From an uncultured Clostridia bacterium (GTDB lineage: Bacteria > Bacillota > Clostridia > TANB77 > CAG-508): 64,000 nt of DNA. The first letter of the stretch is position 1. Each line of letters opens with the position of its first letter. This document shows, piece after piece, positions 3,982 through 20,075 of the stretch. Below the pieces are notes generated by a model. That model was not told the DNA's origin and made no database searches. It was given only the letters and a program-made list of their open reading frames with translations. A program made the position numbers and the translations under genes. The DNA lies in NCBI GenBank assembly GCA_947581805.1, contig CANPVM010000006.1:1-64000 (forward strand). Reading direction: 5' to 3'.

Positions 3982-4236
3982 TTACTCTTCCATTCCTATA
4001 TAATTTTTCACCATTTTTTCTAACAATTCATCTCTTTCTACTTGACGAATTAAGTTTCTTGCTCCATTATGACTGGTAATATAAGTTGGATCCCCAGATA
4101 GAATATAACCTACAATTTGATTAATGGGATTATATCCTTTTTCTGTTAAAGCTTCATATACCTCTTTTAGAATTTGTTTTGCATTTGCTTGTTCTTCCCT
4201 TGGTGTCTTAAAAAACATTGTTTCATCATTTGCCAT
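3982..4236 (-). CDS. ireB: IreB family regulatory phosphoprotein (UPF0297)
   Basis: An 84-residue protein matching IreB/YrzL over its whole length ([46 protein letters not shown]). In enterococci IreB is phosphorylated by the PASTA kinase IreK and affects cephalosporin tolerance. Its general role elsewhere is unclear. The start is supported by TAAGGAGG. It heads the conserved ireB-ruvX-DUF1292 cluster. The alaS gene that usually precedes it is absent; a GGDEF-like gene lies upstream instead. Confidence 0.92.
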
Positions 4237-17656: not shown

Positions 17657-18772
17657 CTATTCTTGTATTTCTTCTTCACTTTCTTCCTTGTATTCGTTTG
17701 ATGTTCCTTCTAGTTCTTTAATAGAAAGTTCTATTTTCTTTGTTTCTATGTTCATATCTATAATTTTAGCATTAACTTTTTCATTTAATGTTAATACTTC
17801 TTCTGGCTTTGTAATTTTCTTTTCTGCAATTTGTGAAATATGAACTAGCCCTTCTATTCCTTGCTCTAGTTCTACAAATGCACCAAATGGCATCATTTTT
17901 ACTACTTTAACTGTAACGATATCGCCAATGTGATATTTATTTTCTATTGTGTCCCATGGATTTGGACCTTTACCTTCATAACTTAGTTTTAGACGTTTAT
18001 TTTCTTTGTCTAATTCTAAAATTGTTACCTTTATGGTTTGACCTTGTTTTAATATATCACTTGGTTTAACATTTCTATCCCATGAGATTTCAGATACATG
18101 AAGTAAGCCTTGCACAGCTCCTAAATCTACAAAAGCACCATAAGTACTTAAGCTTGCTACTGTTCCTTCATATTCTTTTCCTACTTCTACGGTATTCCAA
18201 AATTCTTCTTGTTTTTGTTTTCTTTCTTCGTCTAGTACACTACGAATTGAACCAATAATTTTATTTTCTTTTGGAACATATTCTGTGATACGATACCTTA
18301 CTTTTTGACCTTTTAATGCACTTCCATCTTCTCCTCTAGGAATACCTGATAAAGACATTGGAATGAAGACTCTCATATTATTGATTGTAGTAACTAAACC
18401 TTTTTCATTTACTTGTGTTACTACTGTTTCTATAATTTCATTGTTATTTACTTTTTGTTCTAATTCTTGTTTCGTTTCTTGTGCTTTATAACGTTTGTAA
18501 GATAACAACACATTTCCTAAACCATCGTTTTGTTTTAATACAATAGCTGTAATGCTATCTCCTACTTTAAATTCTTCTTTTGGATTTGCATTTTCATCAT
18601 CACTATATTCTTTTTTAGGAATGATACCATCTGCTTTATAGTGTAAATCTACAAAGATTTCTCCTTGTGAAGTTATGCTAATAATAGTTCCTGTTACGAT
18701 TTTTTCTAATTTTGTTTCTTTTAAAGATGCCTTATATAATTCTTCAAAAGATTGTTCTTTTTCGTTTTCCAT
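17657..18772 (-). CDS. rpsA: S1-domain RNA-binding protein (ribosomal protein S1-like)
   Basis: A 371-residue protein with four S1 OB-fold repeats (approximately residues 20-90, 105-175, 195-265, 280-350). The last two are the most canonical ([22 protein letters not shown]-type and VKMMPFGAFVELEQGIEGLV-type). In Clostridia such four-repeat proteins are annotated as S1, often downstream of cmk and plsC as here, and help mRNA loading. The acidic C-terminus (EYKEESEEEIQE) is typical. A separate RNA gene with its own promoter lies between this gene and plsC. Confidence 0.88.
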   Translation of the reverse strand: MENEKEQSFEELYKASLKETKLEKIVTGTIISITSQGEIFVDLHYKADGIIPKKEYSDDENANPKEEFKVGDSITAIVLKQNDGLGNVLLSYKRYKAQETKQELEQKVNNNEIIETVVTQVNEKGLVTTINNMRVFIPMSLSGIPRGEDGSALKGQKVRYRITEYVPKENKIIGSIRSVLDEERKQKQEEFWNTVEVGKEYEGTVASLSTYGAFVDLGAVQGLLHVSEISWDRNVKPSDILKQGQTIKVTILELDKENKRLKLSYEGKGPNPWDTIENKYHIGDIVTVKVVKMMPFGAFVELEQGIEGLVHISQIAEKKITKPEEVLTLNEKVNAKIIDMNIETKKIELSIKELEGTSNEYKEESEEEIQE

Positions 18773-18957: not shown

Positions 18958-18996
18958 AAAAGATGACGTCCTACATAGTTGAACGCCATCTTTTTA
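18958..18996 (-). terminator. Terminator of the structured RNA
   Basis: AAAAAGATGgCGT / gACGTCATCTTTT hairpin on the minus strand with a U-run, ending the RNA described at 18958-19349. Confidence 0.75.
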
Positions 18997-19197
18997 TTCA
19001 ATTTTATTTTGAGTCTGTTTTCGTGGTATGGAAGATGCTTAGACTCTTACTTACATCTTTTTTCTCTTAATAATTTTTAAGAGAACCACTTTCCGGGGAC
19101 TTTTAGACCTTGTTGCCCTTTCCGCATAACCTCGTTTTTCTCCTACTATGCGCTCTTATCGCGCACTTTTGGCTTTGCCGCCACCGGCCGCCGCTGA

Positions 19198-19260
19198 TCA
19201 GATGTTGTTCATGCTAATAATATTAGGATTCATCGATTTGGGATTTCCTCTTGCTGTCAT
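19198..19260 (-). CDS. Possible 20-codon leader peptide inside the structured RNA
   Basis: AAAGGAGG precedes an ATG by eight bases and opens a 20-codon frame (MTARGNPKSM...SMNNI) ending in TGA, just before the GC-rich core. The frame continues past the TGA for 13 sense codons rich in Ala/Gly. The ribosome-binding site is strong, but the conserved-looking sequence could equally be an RNA structural element. No homologue is recognised. Confidence 0.35.
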   Translation of the reverse strand: MTARGNPKSMNPNIISMNNI

Positions 19261-19355
19261 GTTTTGTCCTCCTTTAATATTTTTTTGTGCTCCTAACACT
19301 AATATGTGTTAAGGGCAAATTACATATAAGTAGCATTTAGCTAACTCATGTATTT

Positions 19356-19384
19356 AGTATACCATAGTATTTTACATAAATCAA
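19356..19384 (-). promoter_or_regulatory. Sigma-A-type promoter of the structured RNA
   Basis: Minus strand: -35 TTGATT, 17-base spacer, -10 TATACT, predicted start near 19349. No open reading frame of normal size follows before the terminator. Confidence 0.75.
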
Positions 19385-19421: not shown

Positions 19422-20018
19422 TTATTTTGTAAGTTCTAAAATATGGTTCATAATATCTTGTGTTACTGCTTCTAATGCTTCTTTTTCATCTACATCTTTG
19501 TATTTGCTATAATCTAATGGCTTGCCATATCGAATAGTTACTTTTGAAAAAGCTCCTTTTTTTCCTGAAATTCCAACTGGTACTACTTTTGCTCCTGTTC
19601 TTATTGCAAAAAATGCTGCTCCATCTTTTACTTTTTCACCTTTAGCAAGTCCATTTCTAGTTCCCTCTGGAAATAAAGCAATGCTCTCTCCTTTTTTTAA
19701 ATATTTTAATGAAGATTTAATGGCATTCAAATCTTTGGAATCTCTTTTAACAGGAATAGCTTCAAATACCCAGCCTAAAAAGGCAAGAAATGGATTTTTA
19801 TATAAACTTTCTTTAGCTAAAAAGTGGGTTTCTCTTTTGGCTGTTACTTTCATTAAAGGTGGATCTAAAAAACTTCTATGGTTTCCACAAAAGATAACTG
19901 CACCTTCCATTGGAATATTTCCTGTTCCTTCTATTTTAGCTCTATGAACTATTTTACAATAAAGAAAAAGAGCACCTTCGACTATTTTTCTTAAAATATT
20001 TTTTATAAATTGTTTCAT
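19422..20018 (-). CDS. plsC: 1-acyl-sn-glycerol-3-phosphate acyltransferase
   Basis: A PlsC-family acyltransferase of about 198 residues that makes phosphatidic acid at the membrane. Catalytic block NHRSFLD and substrate block FPEGTRN are both present, along with the third block VVPVGISG. The hydrophobic N-terminus (ILRKIVEGALFLYCKIV) probably embeds in the membrane face. Start MKQFIKN is chosen because GAAAGGAATG overlaps the earlier ATG. It follows cmk by about 58 bases on the same strand, the common clostridial order cmk-plsC-rpsA. Confidence 0.92.
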   Translation of the reverse strand: MKQFIKNILRKIVEGALFLYCKIVHRAKIEGTGNIPMEGAVIFCGNHRSFLDPPLMKVTAKRETHFLAKESLYKNPFLAFLGWVFEAIPVKRDSKDLNAIKSSLKYLKKGESIALFPEGTRNGLAKGEKVKDGAAFFAIRTGAKVVPVGISGKKGAFSKVTIRYGKPLDYSKYKDVDEKEALEAVTQDIMNHILELTK

Positions 20019-20075
20019 CTTTGTTAACATTCCTTTCTCAATGTACAACTTCGTTTGGAAAAAATTTAATAGTTT

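Follow-up and report, generated by a model that had tools for sequence, protein, structure and literature searches.

The window analysed here is a 64,000-nt stretch of DNA from an uncultured Clostridia bacterium (contig CANPVM010000006.1). On its minus strand, from about position 19384 to 18958, an element lies between plsC (19422-20048) and the gene for ribosomal protein S1 (17657-18772). Its GC content is 38% overall and 54% in its core, compared with 29% for the window. The sequence-only reading of this stretch had proposed a promoter of its own, and one is present as TTGATT-17-TATACT with an extended -10 (19384-19356, minus strand), the -35 TTGATT being part of the extended box TTGATTTATGTAA. 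The box TTGAYTTATGTAA..TAWAMT is kept in relatives of the element and also drives ordinary genes in the host family, so that it is not specific to the RNA. A phage origin was considered and rejected: the box first seemed specific but drives ordinary and phage-like genes, and viral scans gave only chance matches. Across the bacterial family, TTGAYTTATGTAA-N9-13-TAWAMT is a widespread strong promoter (L096, L117, L276-L281 and others) that also precedes phage-type thyA and trigger-factor-like genes, while the reversed control is almost absent.

The intrinsic terminator that had been assigned to the unit is indeed present (18995-18958, minus strand) and used by the element, but it is inherited from plsC. 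In G011, where this site is empty, the plsC stop is followed directly by the shared terminator, CAAAATAAA marking the point where they meet, and by this comparison the terminator belongs to plsC and not to the element. Since it stays at the plsC end in this element-less relative, the unit proper can be placed at about 19417-19011 once the terminator is set aside. Judged from the same site, the element either forms a discrete insert about 400 bp long or was cleanly lost in G011. In G003, the element stops ahead of a different terminator.

A genus-wide search placed the element at the same position in three more genomes (G002, G005, and G003), and two weak matches of this first search led to longer relatives, about 850 nt in length, that neighbour rlmB-like and asnS genes (G007 and G025, then G001, G024, G018, and G026). 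In seven genomes, the window's own included (G000:C8), members of a third group occupy the space between gap and addA, with flanks checked by tblastn. Another member is held by G023 of the same genus, and further members were found in other genera (G384, G364, G214 with two loci, G477, and G509, the same genome as L231). A class-wide search with the pseudoknot model described below found no other genome; as far as seen, the RNA family is confined to one Clostridia family with small genomes. The named records are uncultured Clostridia MAGs, several of which bear "Lapin" isolate names and are probably from rabbit gut.

Presence of the element within the genus is patchy and its length ranges from about 240 nt, as in G015, where the two ORFs account for nearly all of it, to above 1100 nt. 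In G477 (L432, G477:C12:43283-43705), a tandem duplication covers the entire element (346 bp), and in G016 (L087) an ORF2-ORF1 unit of about 269 bp is duplicated in tandem; both suggest that the transcript grows by repeats. The downstream gene differs by locus, being S1 with its own promoter, the convergent addA and asnS, or a small membrane protein gene with its own start region. Because the units occupy several loci with no constant downstream gene, we regard the predicted transcript as stand-alone and not as a leader. In G002 (L018, G002:C22:7900-10300), part of plsC and a truncated second copy of the element are duplicated upstream of the intact one. The gap-addA members of G003, G011, G005, and G000 (L053, L055, L054, and L052) carry arrays of hairpin repeats of about 26 nt (CGCGCAGATGGCGCGGAAATGTGAAC-like) inside the RNA, with copy numbers that differ between species from about two upwards.

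Micro-ORFs and rare codons

The element carries two micro-ORFs on the minus strand. ORF1 (19198-19260) follows the Shine-Dalgarno sequence AAAGGAGGA (19267-19275) and encodes 20 aa, MTARGNPKSMNPNIISMNNI, before its stop, where a motif UGAUCAGCGGCGGCCGG (19184-19200) is found; a similar GAUCxGCxGC follows ORF1 in many relatives by eye. ORF2 (19077-19127) follows TAGGAG (19140-19145), has CGG as its second codon, and encodes the 16 aa MRKGQQGLKVPGKWFS. About 25 relatives, all from one Clostridia family, carry the same pair, and in every two-ORF member each ORF stands a few bases 3' of a Shine-Dalgarno site. No ORF1/ORF2-type pair was found in 2.1 Mb of unrelated DNA, in which 288 Shine-Dalgarno-led micro-ORFs yielded no ORF1 motif and one ORF2 motif.

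The ORF1 peptides share a short motif, R-G-N-P in the window and R-[AGD]-x-P in relatives (23 members), where it reads RAGP, RASP, RAPT, RGPT, or RDGP. It lies at residues 2-12, mostly within the first eight, and the residues outside R-x-x-P vary freely, as in MTRGPTATT.., MIRGPTNK.., MIRAPTN, MHKRAGPMK.., MKRAGPRKK.., MRAGPTK.., MRQTRASPI, MTNISRASPI.., and MRDGPSTS... ORF2 is marked by its end, x-G-F-[V/T/L/A/I] or ..KWF[S/T] directly before the stop; examples are ..RLFPSGFV, ..RWPSGFT, ..RPTSGFT, ..RYPEGFT, ..RFTAGFT, and ..SFPVGFVPLEWFH, and the G384 peptide MKIKEKGRFPVGFAPGKWFT links the window ORF2 to the ..PSGFV type. Conservation acts on residues, as Gly and Pro occur with all four codons, Phe with TTT or TTC, and Ser with AGT versus TCA. 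Two Shine-Dalgarno-led ORFs with synonymous codon changes contradict a reading of the element as a plain noncoding RNA.

The micro-ORFs are 7-42 codons long and their number varies. Three ORF2-type peptides each are encoded in G016 and G214, and the maximum seen is six micro-ORFs in one G016 transcript, ORF1-type copies included. The genome contigs L191 and L198 keep only ORF2, and gap-addA members lack a match to the pseudoknot model except for a weak one; neither part is thus indispensable. A possible third Shine-Dalgarno-led micro-ORF, MKKNNTSN or MKKNYTSK, was seen near the 3' end of gap-addA members (L052, L053, and L055). A possible ORF across the G007 pseudoknot, MRNVRAYTSSIPR, was dropped, as it is not kept in relatives.

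Both micro-ORFs are spelled with the rarest codons of the genome (CCC, CCG, and CGG). CCC or CCG encodes the proline of the ORF1 motif in 19 of 23 members; when each distinct spelling is counted once, the figure is 9 of 13 (p ~5e-13), although the two together supply about 2% of the proline codons of the genus. At 0.14 per 1000 codons, CGG is used less than any other codon in the genus, but it accounts for 15 of the 27 Arg codons in distinct ORF2s versus about 0.5% in ordinary genes. A GC-rich RNA structure could in part account for the rare GC-rich codons. For CGG, the frame control speaks against this: the triplet occurs 14 times in frame versus 1 and 3 times in the other two frames, an excess that argues for its choice as a codon.

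The tRNA matches of G000, G007, and G018 (31-36 each, in lists that are incomplete) include none that reads CGG. They hold only ACG, TCT, and CCT for tRNA-Arg and TGG for tRNA-Pro, with Ala and Ile also missing. A tRNA-Arg(CCG) is likely to be absent from the genus, allowing for the incompleteness of these lists, and CGG may be unassigned or nearly so; an unassigned or reassigned CGG is known in low-GC Firmicutes (PMC8629427). A conserved +1 frameshift, exactly at YTA-CGG-A, splits mfd in six genomes of the genus (G007, L016 ~3990-4060, G007:C4:11977-12009; G025, G024, G018, G017, and G026, L416-L421), as would be expected if CGG is hardly decoded. The frameshift is likely to be programmed, and the codon at which it occurs is one whose cognate tRNA was not found.

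RNA fold and pseudoknot domain

The minimum free energy of the element is -100.9 compared with -76.1 +/- 5.2 for shuffles (z -4.8), a difference partly owed to the terminator hairpin, and the element folds better than every shuffle. The long GC-rich relatives of about 850 nt are far better folded than their shuffles (z -6.9). All structures described here lie on the minus strand. Near the 5' end, the stem of the first hairpin (GAGTTAGC..GCTACTTA, 19327-19347) is rebuilt with other sequence in relatives, and the second (CCTTAACAC..GTGTTAGG, 19292-19314) is paired in 14 homologs with four pairs changed on both sides. A small GC-rich hairpin, GTGCGC..GCGCA (19149-19166), lies in the variable linker, and other structures take its place in relatives. 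The GC-rich core had been read as a sign of strong structural constraint; its GC content is indeed 54%, but the core (about 19085-19200), which lies between and inside the two micro-ORFs, is the least conserved segment among relatives.

In the 3' domain, an outer helix P1, with the 5' arm GTGGT (19085-19089) and the 3' arm ACCAC (19027-19023), encloses a hairpin P2 (TTCTCTTAA/TTAAGAGAA, 19062-19085) and an H-type pair of helices, namely P3 (19032-19059), formed by AAGATG (19059-19054) and CATCTT (19037-19032), and P4 (19011-19046), formed by GAGTCT (19046-19041) and AGACTC (19016-19011). These are exactly the arms named in the sequence-only reading, and the covariation check it suggested found all four helices paired in 13 relatives with compensatory changes, as counted on arms chosen by hand. 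Arms were set by hand because MAFFT, in aligning the pseudoknot region, puts the AGACTC arm in the wrong place. For P2, 72 of 72 pairs are kept versus a shuffle mean of 56.8. P3 changes from G-C to A-U in G026 and is also supported by a covariance model. P4 changes from U-A to C-G in G007, G018, and G025, and the entire helix is replaced in G364. On these hand-set arms, two crossing helices are therefore kept by compensatory change, as defines an H-type pseudoknot. A covariance model of the pseudoknot (R2) detects further members in another genus, and in G016 a rebuilt pseudoknot is kept by eye, with a weak model score.

The pseudoknot domain overlaps the second micro-ORF. ORF2 of the window (19127-19077) contains the 5' arms of both P1 and P2, P2 overlapping its end, and an overlap or close abutment of ORF2 with P1/P2 also holds in the relatives that have the pseudoknot. 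A ribosome finishing ORF2 would therefore be expected to open the base of the domain.

Known RNA classes and competing explanations

Rfam gave no match at gathering score for the window element, and at E<10 nothing but chance matches, all well below the cut-offs. No covariance model of ROOL, GOLLD, OLE, or HEARO matched the element or the long homologs L013 and L014 (E<=1). The earlier exclusion of tmRNA, RNase P, 6S, and SRP RNA agrees with ARAGORN and Rfam, whereas its suggestion of the raiA motif (RF03072) was rejected, as cmscan of the element at E<10 returned no raiA match, not even a weak one. A raiA search of the whole genome was likewise empty, as it was in control genomes, so that the scan of the element is the better test. 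A group I or II intron or an IscB/TnpB guide RNA, suggested by the "GTGCG" start and ornate fold, was dropped for want of an Rfam match and an associated protein. We found no description of such an RNA in the literature. With a promoter of its own, covariation, homologs at several loci, and no fitting Rfam family on the Infernal search at E<10, the proposal of an independent structured RNA of an unnamed class is supported.

Known systems offer partial likenesses. The ornate bacterial RNAs ROOL, GOLLD, and OLE (PMC12286853) and raiA are likewise long, GC-rich, highly folded, stand-alone RNAs of low-GC Firmicutes with orphan function, but the present element differs in its conserved micro-ORFs, its length range of about 240 to more than 1100 nt, and its lack of an Rfam match. 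Dual-function small RNAs also combine RNA structure and a small ORF in one transcript, although they encode one functional small protein and not two to six ORFs with recurring peptide motifs. Attenuator leader peptides with rare or hungry codons similarly have tiny ORFs, unusual codons, and alternative folds overlapping the ORF. The element, in contrast, has several ORFs per transcript and no downstream structural gene, and its codons are the rarest of the genome rather than those of one amino acid.

It is possible that the peptides themselves are the product, in a small operon for two tiny signals, inhibitors, or antimicrobials whose RNA folds only set the expression level. Conservation of both peptides by residue and not by base, members such as G015 with little beyond the two ORFs on about 240 nt, and tandem duplication of the ORFs in G016 and G477 are all compatible with this. 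We nevertheless consider it rather unlikely, as no export signal, processing enzyme, immunity gene, or receptor gene lies beside the copies examined, ORF1 is free to vary outside its motif, and rare codons and a pseudoknot overlap are ill suited to high peptide output. A mainly structural noncoding RNA, acting as an ornate RNA or RNA-protein scaffold that short-ORF translation merely protects or remodels, would account for the z of -6.9 in the forms of about 850 nt, the pseudoknot covariation, and the absence of an Rfam match. This seems unlikely, given that the structured middle is least conserved and nearly absent in small members, and that the ORF pair is what all two-ORF members share.

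Transmission and gene context were weighed in the same way. The empty site in G011, the short repeat CAAAATAAA that flanks the insert on either side, the patchy distribution in the genus, and the tandem copies in G002 and G477 could point to a mobile or satellite-like element carrying the transcript. We hold this to be very unlikely. Different species have their copies at three shared loci (seven genomes at gap-addA), a pattern of vertical descent; moreover, there is no transposase, and phage records and viral contigs gave no match. A cis-acting leader or attenuator of rpsA deserves hardly any credence. The S1 gene is downstream on the same strand in the window, but it has its own perfect TTGACA-17-TATAAT promoter (18874-18846), the downstream gene is convergent at gap-addA and in G024, and the terminator exists without the element. 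A constant association is also lacking, since homologs occupy gap-addA, rlmB-asnS, and other loci and the G011 site upstream of S1 is empty.

A candidate ribosome-stalling RNA

The reading that we prefer, at a probability of roughly 45%, is that the element represents an undescribed RNA family, a stand-alone ribosome-stalling RNA in which ribosomes on ORF2 would compete with the 3' pseudoknot. It builds on features established by sequence comparison: the promoter, the Shine-Dalgarno sites, the motifs, the rare codons, the overlap of ORF2 with the pseudoknot, and the lack of a constant downstream gene. The list of RAPP-like arrest motifs for SecM/ApdA-type peptides (PMC10987492) includes all five motifs of the relatives (RAGP, RASP, RAPT, RGPT, and RDGP), and RAPP, RGPP, and RAGP are among the most avoided tetrapeptides of bacterial proteomes (PMC12992588). 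Short translated ORFs with an R-[A/G]-P-P-like motif are thus found in relatives, the window RGNP being a looser fit; RGNP is not a tested arrest motif, which counts against stalling.

RAPP-like arrest peptides (SecM, ApcA, ApdA/ApdP, and the RQH family; PMC10987492, PMC12992588) resemble the element in having a Shine-Dalgarno-led short ORF, the motif set of ORF1, and a patchy distribution. They are, however, leaders before genes such as sec and yidC, and their nascent chains are longer and carry localization signals, whereas the motif described here stands near the start of a 7-42 codon ORF with no regulated gene in cis: the gene that follows varies between loci, is convergent, or is served by a promoter of its own. 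That same literature on RAPP-like arrest (PMC10987492, PMC12992588) holds no precedent for arrest so close to the start codon.

Under the stalling reading, the stand-alone transcript would recruit ribosomes to its two micro-ORFs and carry the structured 3' pseudoknot alongside. Ribosomes would pause or stall early on ORF1, at the RAPP-like motif with its CCC or CCG proline codon, and on ORF2, where a CGG codon with no cognate tRNA found is combined with a fixed peptide end directly before the stop. A ribosome caught there, at the ORF2 end, would keep P1/P2 open, and ribosome occupancy may thereby decide whether the pseudoknot domain folds. The RNA would then either sense or sequester those ribosomes that are in a given translational state. 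A further-reaching and more doubtful version, which we offer tentatively, is a categorically new kind of RNA, a stand-alone ribosome-trapping sensor whose arrays of two to six micro-ORFs with arrest motifs and CGG might hold ribosomes and switch the pseudoknot. If CGG is nearly undecodable in the genus, such a sensor could therefore signal that a foreign tRNA-Arg(CCG) has arrived, for instance with a phage, or what state the supply of ribosomes is in.

To our knowledge, the arrest peptides described so far act as leaders that turn on an adjacent gene. If confirmed, an RNA that is structured and stand-alone, carries several arrest-type micro-ORFs, and has no client gene would imply a wider use of nascent-chain stalling, and would link the purpose of large orphan RNAs in gut Firmicutes with the fate of near-abandoned codons such as CGG. 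The system is testable in vitro using short templates.

Separately, degenerate tRNA-like genes with odd anticodon loops were noticed (L415, G000:C2:13966-14154, and L396); ARAGORN gives no call or no assignment for them, and Rfam scores them as tRNA.
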